Origin: a virus
Virus record (IMG/VR): IMGVR_UViG_3300046167_000825
Location: 225,015-289,014 of that record
Length of the DNA stretch: 64,000 bases
Reading direction: 5' to 3' (one strand)
The translations under genes and the position numbers were made by a program. The number at the start of each line of letters is the position of its first letter. Within the stretch, counting starts at the first letter, position 1. The notes under the pieces are model-generated. The model made no database searches. It was given only the letters and a program-made list of their open reading frames with translations, and was not told the DNA's origin. Of this stretch, positions 3,143-47,222 are shown in pieces.

Positions 3143-3152
3143 TTCCGTATAC
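3143..3152 (+). promoter_or_regulatory. TTCCGTATAC promoter-like motif
   Basis: TTCCGTATA lies 17 bases before the ATG of the SbcD-like gene. It belongs to the recurrent TTTCGTATA family found before non-structural genes in this window. Assignment as a promoter is an inference from recurrence and position. Confidence 0.45.
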
Positions 3153-6569: not shown

Positions 6570-7198
6570 TGTCTCAAGACCTCCGAAATAAATACCAAAA
6601 ACTGGTAGGGAAACGAGATAGTCTACAAGATAGGCTATCTCAAATCCTTTCTCAAATCTCAAGTTTAGAGAACGAGATAGACACCCTAGATTATGTTTCT
6701 AGTGTGTTTCGCCAGTTATTGGATAGAGAGGTGGTCAGCAGTGTTCAAAGTGTTGAGAGGTTGCTCACAGAAGCCTTACAAGCCGTATTCACAGACCAAG
6801 ACTTAAAGGTTGAATCAGAGGTGGGTGAAAGTCGAGGGAAGGTTTCGGTTAATCTCACCACCGTGCAAGATCATGGTGGTGGGGTTATTGTGGGGGGTGA
6901 TACCACAGAAGGGTTTGGTGGTGCAGTTTGTACTGTTCAAAGTGCTATTCTCCGTATCTTTGTGACTCTCAACAGAGGTCTTCGTCCATTGTTATTGATG
7001 GATGAAAGTCTGCCCGCTTTCGATAACAACTATGTTCAGAATATGGGCAAGTTTTTATCTTTGTTATGTGAACGACTTGACCTAGATATTTTATTGGTCA
7101 CTCACAACCAATCTCTGGTGGACTCGGCAGACAGAGCCTATCGCATAGACAAGAAGAACGGTAAAGCCATTTTCACGGAGATAACTCATGCCAATTAG
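6569..7198 (+). CDS. SbcC/gp46-like half ATPase lacking Walker A
   Basis: This 209-residue protein begins with about 60 residues of coiled coil and then resembles the C-terminal lobe of SbcC/Rad50/SMC ATPases. It has a signature-like segment GFGGAVCTVQSAILRIFV, a Walker B-like LLLMDESLPAFD near residue 145, and the H-loop LLVTHN. There is no Walker A motif and no N-terminal lobe. It may pair with a separate N-terminal half encoded elsewhere, or act as a non-ATPase partner of the SbcD-like protein at 3168. Start and stop overlap both neighbours. Confidence 0.75.
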   Translation: MSQDLRNKYQKLVGKRDSLQDRLSQILSQISSLENEIDTLDYVSSVFRQLLDREVVSSVQSVERLLTEALQAVFTDQDLKVESEVGESRGKVSVNLTTVQDHGGGVIVGGDTTEGFGGAVCTVQSAILRIFVTLNRGLRPLLLMDESLPAFDNNYVQNMGKFLSLLCERLDLDILLVTHNQSLVDSADRAYRIDKKNGKAIFTEITHAN

Positions 7199-7418
7199 AC
7201 GAAAACCCAAGAAGCAAGCCATGAGAAAAGTTGAGGTTGAAGTTGGGGGTAAGACCTACACTCTCAAGTTCTCCTCAGATATCGATCAGATTCTCAGTGG
7301 TCTTGGTATAGCCTTGTTAAGTTTGAATGATCCAAAAGTGAACCTCATATTAAAGCAGTTCGGCTTACAGTTTTATGATGTTGAGGGTAACAAGATAGAG
7401 GCGAGCGATGAAAACTAA
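7188..7418 (+). CDS. conserved-looking small protein, 76 aa
   Basis: The gene overlaps the stop of the SbcC-like gene by 11 bases and is itself overlapped by the next gene. A basic N-terminus (PIRRKPKKQAMRK) is followed by a compact beta-strand/helix region. No family is recognised. Operon position suggests a role in replication or recombination. Confidence 0.6.
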   Translation: MPIRRKPKKQAMRKVEVEVGGKTYTLKFSSDIDQILSGLGIALLSLNDPKVNLILKQFGLQFYDVEGNKIEASDEN

Positions 7419-28111: not shown

Positions 28112-28122
28112 TATTGTCGATA
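28112..28122 (+). promoter_or_regulatory. TATTGTCGATA late-promoter-like motif
   Basis: TATTGTCGATA lies about 52 bases before the acidic core-protein ATG. It is a member of the TTCGATA family that recurs before structural genes. Confidence 0.45.
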
Positions 28123-32124: not shown

Positions 32125-32775
32125 ATGGCTTTACTTGGACAAGCGAGTGGTGCGTTTACAGAAAGTTCTTCATCTTTACGGATTCTACATGTTGGTATCC
32201 GAAACACTGTCGGTGTTATTACAGATGAGGCTTTCGAGCAAACTAACCCTCCCGTACTTTCTGCATCTGGTGCTGGATCTACCATCTCAGATCAAGTATC
32301 TACAACAATCTTCGGAGTTCTCTCTGGATCTGTTGCTTTCACTCGACCAGACATTGACGAAAATGTAATCGGTGGCCCAGCGGCTACTGCTGCTTTGTTG
32401 CTTTCTGCTGGATGTCGACCACTTGGTGTATTCATTAACCACGCTGCTGGATATTCTTTCGAGAACACACCCGCGGCTGCTTCTAACAAGTGTCCTTATG
32501 TTTCTGCACAAGGTTGCTATGCAAACTCTTTGTTTGAAACCAACATTATCACTAATGGTGGAACTACTGGTACTGCCGTTGCTGCTGTTGCTACTGTACC
32601 AGTTACTGCTTATGCTGCTGGACAAAACTTGGTTGCTTCTGTTAATGGTTACTTGACCAACGAAGCCGCTGACGGATATGAAGCGACACAAGGTGGAACT
32701 AATACTATTATCGGAATCGTGAAGATGGCCCCAGATAATACTCAAGATGAACTCGTTTACGACCAACGCATTTAA
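32125..32775 (+). CDS. probable capsid decoration/head protein, 216 aa
   Basis: AAAGGAGAAA precedes ATG 32125. The protein is Ala/Thr/Gly-rich and beta-patterned, without charged clusters, as in head decoration or stabilisation proteins. It lies 13 bases before the major capsid gene, with a terminator and a late-type promoter motif upstream. Codons are strongly skewed to GCT for Ala and GGT/GGA for Gly, as expected for very high expression. The exact family is not recognised. Confidence 0.65.
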   Translation: MALLGQASGAFTESSSSLRILHVGIRNTVGVITDEAFEQTNPPVLSASGAGSTISDQVSTTIFGVLSGSVAFTRPDIDENVIGGPAATAALLLSAGCRPLGVFINHAAGYSFENTPAAASNKCPYVSAQGCYANSLFETNIITNGGTTGTAVAAVATVPVTAYAAGQNLVASVNGYLTNEAADGYEATQGGTNTIIGIVKMAPDNTQDELVYDQRI

Positions 32776-32788
32776 GGAGGAGACTACT

Positions 32789-33658
32789 ATGAGCGTATCA
32801 AATGCTGTGAAGCAAAAAATCATTTCTGATTATATCAAGACTCCTCAAGGGCGTGCGAAACTTGCAGCGTCTATGACTCAACCATTACGTTTGCGTAGAG
32901 ATTACGCATCGGTTGGTCGTAAGACATTTCTTGTTGAACAACTGCCAGACGGAGCGTTGCCAATTTATGACAAAGATCCAGATGTAACTGCGTATGTGGT
33001 TGGTGAAGAAGGACAAAACATCCTTGCAATCACTAAGCCAAGACGTGTTATCTTTCCTTTGTTTGAGATTGCATCTAACCCCGAAATCCCTTTGACACAA
33101 ATCAAAGAAAGACGATTCGACCTTATTGAGCGTGCTCAAGATTTGGCTCGTGCCCAAATCCAAGCGGCAGAAGATGAGCGAGTATTCTCTACTCTTGATG
33201 CTGTTGCTCAGAACGGTTTCGATTCTGTTGGAAACCAAAACCCAGACATCCCAGTTGTTGCTCCAGTTACTGGTGCAGTCCTTGCTGATGCTTTTGCGTT
33301 AATCGAACGCCATGACCTTCGTGTTGCACGAATCTTCATGAACGCTCGTGACTATGCAGATTTGCGTAAGTTCGGTCGTGACATCTTGGATATCGAATCT
33401 CAGCGTGACTTGTTGAAGACTGGTCTTATGGCTACTCTTTGGGGTGCTCAGATCATCACTTCTCGTATCGTTCCCGTTGGAACAGTATATGTTGCTTGTG
33501 AGCCAGAGTTCTTTGGTCGCATGCCAGTTCGTACTGAGTTGACTGTATTGTCTGCTGATGATCCAAAGGCTCGTACTATTGGGTTCTCTGTATTCGAGAA
33601 TATCGGTATCGGTTGTTTCAATCCTCGTGGATTGGTTCGATTGTCTATCACTCGATAA
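32789..33658 (+). CDS. major capsid protein, HK97 fold
   Basis: ATG 32789 follows TTAAGGAGGAG. The 289-residue protein has an N-terminal helical part (NAVKQKIISDYIKTPQGRAK) and a core that fits the HK97 fold: a spine-like helix ERRFDLIERAQDLARAQI, then DAFALIERHDLRVARIFMN and a C-terminal FSVFENIGIGCFNPRGLVRL. It lies downstream of scaffold and protease, and a strong terminator follows. It would form the icosahedral shell. Confidence 0.8.
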   Translation: MSVSNAVKQKIISDYIKTPQGRAKLAASMTQPLRLRRDYASVGRKTFLVEQLPDGALPIYDKDPDVTAYVVGEEGQNILAITKPRRVIFPLFEIASNPEIPLTQIKERRFDLIERAQDLARAQIQAAEDERVFSTLDAVAQNGFDSVGNQNPDIPVVAPVTGAVLADAFALIERHDLRVARIFMNARDYADLRKFGRDILDIESQRDLLKTGLMATLWGAQIITSRIVPVGTVYVACEPEFFGRMPVRTELTVLSADDPKARTIGFSVFENIGIGCFNPRGLVRLSITR

Positions 33659-33684
33659 TTGACTTAGAAACTTAGGTTTCATTG

Positions 33685-33718
33685 AAAGCCTCTTTCCGAA
33701 AGGAAGGGGGCTTTTTTT
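33685..33718 (+). terminator. terminator after major capsid gene
   Basis: AAAGCCTCTTTCC and GGAAGGGGGCTTT pair around a GAAA tetraloop (one wobble), followed by seven Ts. Confidence 0.85.
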
Positions 33719-33746
33719 GTGTCCCCACATGGGGTAAAAAGTCATT

Positions 33747-33840
33747 ATTTTCGGTCGCCTCCCCTAATGTTTTGAACATCACCCCAAAAATGAAAGGGGA
33801 AACAACCGAAAATGGAGAGCAAGGAAGAACTAGGGGAGGC
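33747..33840 (+). ncRNA. H-type pseudoknot sequestering a ribosome binding site
   Basis: Two perfect helices interleave. ATTTTCGGT (33747-33755) pairs with ACCGAAAAT (33805-33813). GCCTCCCCTA (33757-33766) pairs with TAGGGGAGGC (33831-33840). Because the order is a-b-a'-b', they form a pseudoknot. Two small hairpins lie inside: ATGTT-TTG-AACAT (33767-33779) and CCCC...GGGG (33782-33799). The last strand contains GGGGAGG, the ribosome site for ATG 33847, so folding would block translation. It may be a riboswitch or a protein-binding autoregulatory site like the T4 gene 32 pseudoknot; the ligand is unknown. Confidence 0.65.
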
Positions 33841-33846
33841 TATACT

Positions 33847-34068
33847 ATGTGGTATCGGGATGGTTTGAGAGGGCAAGTACCCACCGAACACTTAAAAGTG
33901 CCTCCTATGGCTGTTTTTGAGAGCCTCAGTGACCGTCCTTTGATGGGGGCTGTTCTTTATACGATTTCCGATTTGATATATAATTTTCCGACAGAGTTTC
34001 ATGACAAGATAGAGGGGCATTGGTCTTCCCACCTAACAATGAAAAGGATGAATTGTTGTCTTCTATAA
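33847..34068 (+). CDS. hypothetical protein under pseudoknot control, 73 aa; possibly truncated by a frameshift
   Basis: ATG 33847 has GGGGAGG seven bases upstream inside the pseudoknot. The first 58 residues (WYRDGLRGQVPTEHLKVPPM and following) look coding. At 34014-34017 (GGGG) a -1 shift opens a longer frame that continues as LVFPPNNEKDELLSSINRSS and KEILIKNLYSLWHKQIAYCP and could run to 34250. This suggests a lost G or true truncation; the last part of the extension looks less coding-like. No function is recognised. Confidence 0.45.
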   Translation: MWYRDGLRGQVPTEHLKVPPMAVFESLSDRPLMGAVLYTISDLIYNFPTEFHDKIEGHWSSHLTMKRMNCCLL

Positions 34069-34243
34069 ACCGTAGTTCGTTGAAGGAGATTTTGATAAAA
34101 AATCTCTATTCTCTGTGGCACAAGCAAATAGCCTATTGCCCTAGTTCAAACTGGCATATTGGTTTTTCTTTGCTTTTCTGTTCCACTTTTTTTCCCGATA
34201 ACTGCTCTATATTCTCATACTTAAGGTACAAGAGAGGTGTTGA

Positions 34244-34477
34244 ATGGTAGTAGAACTAACAGATTTTAGATTGGCTGGATACTTGGTGGCAAGAGGCGTG
34301 AAGTTTCTAGGCACTTCAAAGAATGACAGACGGGAAGTTGTCTTTTCATTTGATGACAGTGATGGTGAAGCCACAAGAGTCTTGACGGCATACCCAACTT
34401 CTCCAGAGCAGAGATATGACTCATCATGTAAGACAATGTATGACTTGGTTAAGGTCGAACTAAAAAAACGAGGCTAG
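34244..34477 (+). CDS. DUF5659-like small protein, copy 1 (77 aa)
   Basis: The pattern LTDFRLAGYLVARGVKFLG, REVVFSFDDSD and a C-terminal YDLVKVELKK matches DUF5659-type proteins, which are common in phages and have unknown function. The next gene is a clear paralogue (FRLAG, SPEQRYD and SCKTM are shared), so this is a tandem duplication. AGAGAGGTG precedes the ATG. Confidence 0.7.
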   Translation: MVVELTDFRLAGYLVARGVKFLGTSKNDRREVVFSFDDSDGEATRVLTAYPTSPEQRYDSSCKTMYDLVKVELKKRG

Positions 34478-34479
34478 AT

Positions 34480-34734
34480 ATGGACTTACCATTGACGGAT
34501 TTCCGTCTTGCTGGTTTTCTATTGTCGAGGGGAATCACTTTTATCCGAACGGAAGAGCAACCTAACGGTGAAATACTCTTTCTATTTGATAATACAGATA
34601 ACCTCGCACAGAACACTTTGAATGAATACCCCAACTCGCCAGAGCAACGGTATGATACATCTTGTAAGACAATGCACAATTTCATCTCTGCTATCAAACG
34701 CAGTAAATCTTATCAAAAAAGGAGGACTCAATGA
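34480..34734 (+). CDS. DUF5659-like small protein, copy 2 (84 aa)
   Basis: Paralogue of the preceding gene: LTDFRLAGFLLSRGITFI, then EILFLFDNTDN and NSPEQRYDTSCKTMHNF. It starts 2 bases after the first copy. A basic C-terminal tail (KRSKSYQKRRTQ) is unique to this copy. The stop overlaps the next ATG. A third, more distant relative is at 47271-47534. Confidence 0.7.
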   Translation: MDLPLTDFRLAGFLLSRGITFIRTEEQPNGEILFLFDNTDNLAQNTLNEYPNSPEQRYDTSCKTMHNFISAIKRSKSYQKRRTQ

Positions 34735-40137: not shown

Positions 40138-40524
40138 ATGAAGAAAAAAGCAACAAGTTCCTACGCTTCTTGGGCGTTATTAAGTGAGGGTGTTTCCTCT
40201 GCGAGAGTTGAAGCCTATCGGTTAAGACACCTCGTCAATCGTGCTATGGCTCTCATTGAGCAATCTGTTGCCAAAGACCATCTGTATCAAGTGGCTGGAG
40301 ATATCATTATGGGTGTGCCTTCCCGTCTTGATAGGATAGAACAAACACTTGATAGAACTTCTTACGCTTTAGCGAAGATGGGGGATGCTCATCTCAAACA
40401 ACGCCTTCCTATCCACGATAGAGAAATGGTGGAAGAAAGTATCCAACGGGCTGACTTATTGAATCCGTCTTTTTCAAAGATGTCTTCTAATGTCGCTCAA
40501 AGATTCTTGGATACCGATAAATGA
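40138..40524 (+). CDS. helical protein with C-terminal NVAQRFL tag-like end, 128 aa
   Basis: The start lies four bases after a terminator T-run. The protein is helical (RVEAYRLRHLVNRAMALIEQ, DRIEQTLDRTSYALAKMGD) and ends in SSNVAQRFLDTDK, a variant of the recurring RVAxRYL peptide. It overlaps the next gene. Probably an internal virion protein. Confidence 0.6.
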   Translation: MKKKATSSYASWALLSEGVSSARVEAYRLRHLVNRAMALIEQSVAKDHLYQVAGDIIMGVPSRLDRIEQTLDRTSYALAKMGDAHLKQRLPIHDREMVEESIQRADLLNPSFSKMSSNVAQRFLDTDK

Positions 40525-47208: not shown

Positions 47209-47222
47209 AATAACCATTCGAT
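47209..47222 (+). promoter_or_regulatory. AATAACCATTCGATA late-promoter-like motif
   Basis: A family member with CATTCGATA, 49 bases before ATG 47271, again with a terminator between it and the gene. Confidence 0.4.

Follow-up and report, generated by a model that had tools for sequence, protein, structure and literature searches.

A leader predicted to mask the ribosome binding site of a small orphan gene behind the capsid gene of a phage G-like jumbo phage

Does the leader in front of a small gene of a large phage hide its own ribosome binding site, and what decides whether that site is exposed? The locus lies in a 64-kb window, which is the whole stretch of DNA analysed here and makes up the 3'-terminal part of a 289-kb virus record from a phage that is kin to Bacillus phage G. 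We characterized the leader by folding, shuffling and comparative searches, and weighed regulatory readings of it against chance.

The leader and the gene behind it

In the window, the major capsid protein gene (32747..33658, + strand; phrog_2522 major head protein, E=1.4e-55) is 86% identical to that of a 485-kb uncultured phage and 40% identical to Bacillus phage G gp27. Directly behind it stands a strong intrinsic terminator (33684..33715, + strand) with a 14-pair stem and a T run, so that RNA from upstream reaches the leader only by read-through. The leader (33716-33846, + strand) extends from this terminator to ATG 33847 of a 73-aa ORF (33847..34068, + strand), behind which are a 76-aa ORF in the -1 frame (34020..34250, + strand), which has a weak coding signal and runs into the start of the following gene, and two DUF5659 genes on the + strand (34244..34477, PF18903 E=1.3e-5; 34480..34734, PF18903 E=2.8e-8).

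Searches of Pfam, PHROGs and phage records found nothing that matches the product of the 73-aa ORF, in keeping with the original prediction, which had described it as a protein of unknown kind. In a dicodon model trained on this genome, the ORF scored above 97% of spurious ORFs and its first 58 codons above 99.8% of them; its single-codon score was weak. Judged from its coding statistics, the ORF is probably a real orphan coding gene, at least over the first 58 codons, and its place after the capsid gene suggests late expression. Note that the 73-aa and 76-aa ORFs (33847-34250) overlap in the -1 frame and are identical in all three assemblies. A programmed -1 frameshift fusing these two ORFs was considered and rejected, as no slippery heptamer was seen by eye.

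Interleaved helices and a competing hairpin

The leader contains two perfect helices that interleave in the strand order a-b-a'-b' (all strands on the + strand), and the coordinates and pairing originally predicted for them were exact. In helix a, the 5' strand ATTTTCGGT (33747-33755) pairs with its exact complement ACCGAAAAT (33805-33813) over 9 bp, or over 11 bp (33745-33815) if G-U pairs are allowed. In helix b, the 5' strand GCCTCCCCTA (33757-33766) pairs with its exact complement TAGGGGAGGC (33831-33840) over 10 bp. The latter strand, b', contains a good Shine-Dalgarno (SD) sequence, whose core GGAGG (33835-33839) lies 7 nt 5' of ATG 33847, helix b itself ending at 33840; it had been proposed as the ribosome site of this start, and our results agree. 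The proposal that strand b mimics the anti-SD sequence was also supported, and the b/b' duplex (-19.9 kcal/mol) was calculated to be more stable than the SD:anti-SD duplex (-11.2 kcal/mol). Two small hairpins that had been noted between the helices, ATGTT/AACAT (33767-33779, + strand) and CCCC/GGGG (33782-33785 / 33796-33799), are both present, but weak.

Within the 64-kb window, a and b were the sole interleaved pair in which both helices reach at least 9 bp. When the 127-nt leader was shuffled 20,000 times, pairs of at least 9+10 bp appeared in 3 cases, which agrees with the original statement that chance was unlikely; dinucleotide-preserving shuffling of the whole window also gave such pairs in 3 of 100 cases, which tempers it. 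A chance origin of the pair is unlikely, but conceivable at the scale of a whole-window reading. We consider somewhat unlikely the explanation that the pairing arose by chance in a CCCC/GGGG-rich leader and has no regulatory role. In its favour, the earlier reader had scanned the entire window, where comparable pairs occur in 3% of shuffled windows and about 24 perfect helices of at least 9 bp are expected; the folding energy of the whole leader was ordinary (z -0.68 for 33720-33860 and z -1.43 for 33720-33848), and conservation was not seen outside near-identical contigs. On the other hand, a helix sits exactly on the SD 7 nt from the ATG in an intergenic leader, and the p value of this masking helix for that start, about 0.003 for helix b alone, was the floor of a 300-shuffle test. 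The genome also shows an excess of SD-masking cases, as described below.

The original prediction had overlooked a second partner of strand b, namely AGGGGA at 33795..33800 (+ strand), inside helix a, which pairs in the nascent fold with TCCCCT (UCCCCU in RNA; 33760-33765, + strand) within the 5' strand of helix b. This pairing belongs to an inverted repeat, I1, of 19 nt with 84% complementarity. Helix a, TCCCCT/AGGGGA and an apical stem together form a long imperfect hairpin (33745..33815, + strand) that leaves the SD free and that is the leader's most unusual single fold (-21.3 kcal/mol and z -4.15 for 33747-33813; -24.6 kcal/mol and z -3.99 for 33742-33818). In nested folding of the nascent RNA, the long hairpin at a 3' end of 33834 (-25.4 kcal/mol) gave way to b/b' at 33840 (-27.0 kcal/mol). 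The long hairpin and helix b are mutually exclusive in TCCCCT, and helix a could in principle stay in both. The leader is better described as two competing folds that have the strand UCCCCU (33760-33765) in common.

The prominence of the hairpin is also what speaks for a different role of the inverted repeats, in RNase III-type processing, as a 5' stabilising hairpin or as a DNA-palindrome protein site, with masking as a secondary effect. We regard such a role as very improbable, since neither a site nor a protein of this sort is known at the locus, and the 64-nt spacing of the 10-bp arms of b does not resemble that of a DNA operator.

Helices a and b formed together would make a pseudoknot, which the original prediction had put forward as the structure of the leader. 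Using a crude pknotsRG-like model with a penalty of 9 kcal/mol and a further 0.3 for each unpaired base in the loops, we obtained a score of -23.8 kcal/mol, beyond 99.7% of shuffles and yet some 4.5 kcal/mol less favourable than the nested optimum, so that in this crude model the pseudoknot was not the favoured fold. Nested helix b alone suffices to mask the SD; the a-b pseudoknot is possible as an intermediate or final form in these models and would be unneeded for masking. The further claim of a riboswitch or phage protein operator found no Rfam match and no ligand support: neither the window, searched against Rfam 15, nor the leader, searched permissively, gave a match at the gathering score, and the best sub-threshold matches were at chance level. 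An HDV-like ribozyme, which has a similar strand order, was also considered and rejected, as no P4-like hairpin between a' and b' was seen by eye and Rfam gave no match.

A more elaborate reading joins both folds in a bistable device, in which helix a serves as a constant clamp while UCCCCU swaps partners. Pairing with AGGGGA would be the ON state and pairing with the SD strand, which closes the a-b pseudoknot, the OFF state; a protein or small ligand would favour one or the other, as in an autoregulatory operator or a riboswitch. Each fold is improbable alone (z about -4 for the hairpin, p=0.003 for b), the two have exactly one strand in common and lie near in energy (-25.4 to 33834 versus -27.0 to 33840), the pseudoknot scores better than 99.7% of shuffles, and the hairpin is able to form before b' exists. 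Against these points stand the lack of an Rfam family and of a homologue with changes, the 4.5 kcal/mol by which the pseudoknot exceeds the nested optimum in the crude model, the ease with which the CCCC/GGGG runs of the leader make rival pairings, and a loop of about 29 nt, too little for a typical metabolite aptamer. Overall, we consider a bistable device somewhat unlikely. Its fullest version, a jumbo-phage switch with clamp a, an anti-SD strand swapped by toehold displacement, closure of the pseudoknot and a phage protein or ligand that tips the balance, we consider distinctly less likely again; if true, it would be a rare viral pseudoknot governing translation initiation.

Known pseudoknots offer partial parallels. 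In the SAM-II, SAM/SAH and preQ1-II riboswitches, the SD strand is part of the 3' helix of an H-type pseudoknot or adjoins it. The strand b' resembles this arrangement in being the 3' strand of an interleaved helix; unlike those riboswitches, the leader has no sequence or covariance match to them, has helices of 9-10 bp with an inner loop of 38 nt, and precedes a phage gene of unknown function. The pseudoknot of the SAM/SAH riboswitch is described in PMC7367207. In the mRNA of T4/T2 gene 32, a pseudoknot situated 67 nt before the start nucleates the binding of gp32, and none of its helices includes the SD (PMC3014915). The present leader likewise has a candidate pseudoknot tied to translational control, but neither a gp32-like gene nor a sign of protein binding was found here.

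RNA start points, promoters and masking arms

In nested ensembles with several 5' and 3' ends, the mean unpaired probability of the SD was 0.002-0.12 in most RNAs starting at or before 33756, the exception being RNA 33740-33870 (0.37). It was 0.17-0.26 for start 33760 and 0.57-0.81 for starts at or after 33764. The accessibility of the SD varies with the 5' end, indicating that the start point of the RNA decides the outcome: in these models, starts before ~33757 would hide the SD and starts at or after 33764 would expose it. The original proposal of an on/off translation switch thus stands in so far as the SD is mostly masked in upstream-started RNAs, but a switch operated by a ligand or protein is unsupported.

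We put at about even the chance that the leader is a cis-acting SD-masking element that silences read-through RNA. Silencing of read-through mRNA is also the most economical explanation, as masking arms recur upstream of this phage's promoters. Under this masking model, b would pair with b' in RNA entering from upstream, either by terminator read-through or from a start before ~33757, and the hidden ribosome site would leave such RNA silent or poorly translated for the 73-aa ORF. Translation would occur when b is absent or occupied. The main translated form would be RNAs starting inside or after b, following the logic of T4 gene e; as a lesser route, the long hairpin (33745-33815), finished before b' is transcribed, could hold UCCCCU. 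A path to the pseudoknot might keep a in place while b' displaces UCCCCU/AGGGGA via an exposed GCC. We infer that b is active in the cell, that RNA starts inside b, and that the arrangement serves the timing or silencing of a late gene. Several findings run counter to the masking model: the long hairpin (z about -4) is superfluous for simple masking, which does not account for it; the 73-aa ORF has no confirming homologue; and, as described below, b holds no clear promoter, post-capsid leaders in general are not enriched for masking, and most of the top-scoring masked starts of this genome are terminators.

Masking of this kind is already known in phage leaders, and the present leader would be a further example of it. 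T4 genes e, soc, 49 and I-TevI and Aeh1 mobE have SD-sequestering leaders, and in T4 gene e the 5' arm contains the late promoter, which leaves late RNA without this arm (PMC3014915). As in the T4 gene e-type leaders, the SD of a phage gene is predicted here to be concealed in long transcripts by an RNA helix with an upstream strand, the perfect 10-bp b/b'. Unlike in those leaders, the arm lies 64 nt away and a second hairpin competes for it; in addition, the arm yielded no convincing promoter, and phage and gene are unrelated to those systems.

The phage's own promoters surfaced from over-represented intergenic words. They consist of GCGGTTG (class A) or GGGATCG (class B), each ~16 nt 5' of CCGTATA; tens of intergenic regions contain them, at a distance of 25-50 nt from the start that follows. 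Such bipartite promoters occur throughout record G000, e.g. at window positions 3145, 9045 and 24639, and in loci L086-L097. In the structural region, a late-type motif, (TTATT/AATAA)-N-TCGATA, was found at window positions 28117, 32002, 35338, 40089, 46140 and 47218. The class A and B motifs were absent from the leader, no clear promoter was found inside b, and the sole + strand match to a sigma-70-type promoter (33956-33984) lies inside the 73-aa ORF rather than in the leader. A weak and speculative candidate late promoter, TCATTATTTTCGGTC (33742..33756, + strand; matrix match 33735-33759), scored 3.7 and ranked 597 of 577,980 positions with a matrix from six late-promoter sites; it reads TCGGTC for TCGATA, and several better or comparable matches are nearby. 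RNA from this candidate would begin near 33763, inside b, which is suggestive only.

Of 52 starts behind recognised phage promoters, 9 showed at p<0.05 an arm that masks the SD and lies upstream of where the promoter's RNA begins, against 2.6 expected; for 4 of the 52 this held at p<=0.01. In L096 (17623), the promoter GGATCG...TCGTATA overlaps the 5' arm and loop of the masking hairpin, and in L089 (10976) the 5' arm of the masking hairpin contains CCGTATA, so that in both cases only read-through RNA would be masked. T4 genes e and I-TevI follow the same logic as this upstream-arm layout, and Aeh1 mobE does so as regards SD masking (PMC3014915). As a genome-wide pattern, SD-masking arms upstream of phage promoters provide a testable rule. 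If b masks the SD in the cell, T4-type read-through silencing also occurs in jumbo phages of the phage G kind, in which the timing of genes has received little study, and if the competing hairpin also matters, strand exchange has a compact model in this leader.

Among the five masked starts that score highest in this genome, three were terminators overlapping an SD. Terminator hairpins with a T-run stand directly before the ATG in L089 (10976), in L086 (4735) and at window position 40138, and also at 47218 and 50969; some of these hairpins hold the SD inside or a promoter motif in the 5' arm. Such hairpins are at once the upstream terminator and the 5' leader of the next gene.

Leaders of related phages

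The leader was found in only two other carriers, near-identical IMG/VR contigs in which it is unchanged. Searches for relatives of the 73-aa protein, and for DNA patterns from the SD region and helices a and b, retrieved the same two contigs only. Covariance models of both folds found no homologue among 62 loci, nor did a hairpin covariance model in 8 whole records. At 80 loci of capsid-gene relatives, the post-capsid leaders were mostly unrelated.

DUF5659 as a bridge to leaders gave 11 loci, of which only L100 was informative; genome contigs gave none. This locus, with 94% capsid identity, is the closest relative with a different leader, a short one before DUF5659. There, a TTCCCC/GGGGAG hairpin (-8.8 kcal/mol) lies over the orthologous-looking SD TAGGGGAG of the DUF5659 gene, just behind a promoter-like TCCTATA, and the promoter-like region matches the window before CCCC, at the weak candidate late promoter, at 10 of 19 bases (P about 0.012). 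Judged by its sequence, L100 lends weak support to masking and is silent on helix a.

Leaders behind the major capsid protein gene showed no general enrichment of SD masking (KS p=0.15), and only the present leader and that of L027 stood out. In L027, the SD of the gene that follows the capsid gene is masked by a perfect helix of 16 bp, TGACCTCTTTAGGTTC/GAACCTAAAGAGGTCA (~7040-7110), and a promoter-like pair, TTGACC...TACAAA, overlaps the 5' arm of this helix.

Two further conserved elements were observed in these searches. Upstream of DUF5659, L020 (3732-3800) and L010 (2666-2735) share a conserved leader in which CTATC/GATAG interleaves with a second helix whose two sides both differ, CCACAG/CTGTGG versus CATAAG/CTTATG; it had no Rfam match and is possibly a covarying pseudoknot in a syntenic slot. 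After the capsid terminator, L053 (~6930-7200) and its homologues in L063 and L064 have an RNA-like element, also without an Rfam match, whose core GAGGGCGATCAAGACCCGTTGACCA is conserved; one helix of it shows apparent compensatory changes, and its 3' end resembles a terminator.
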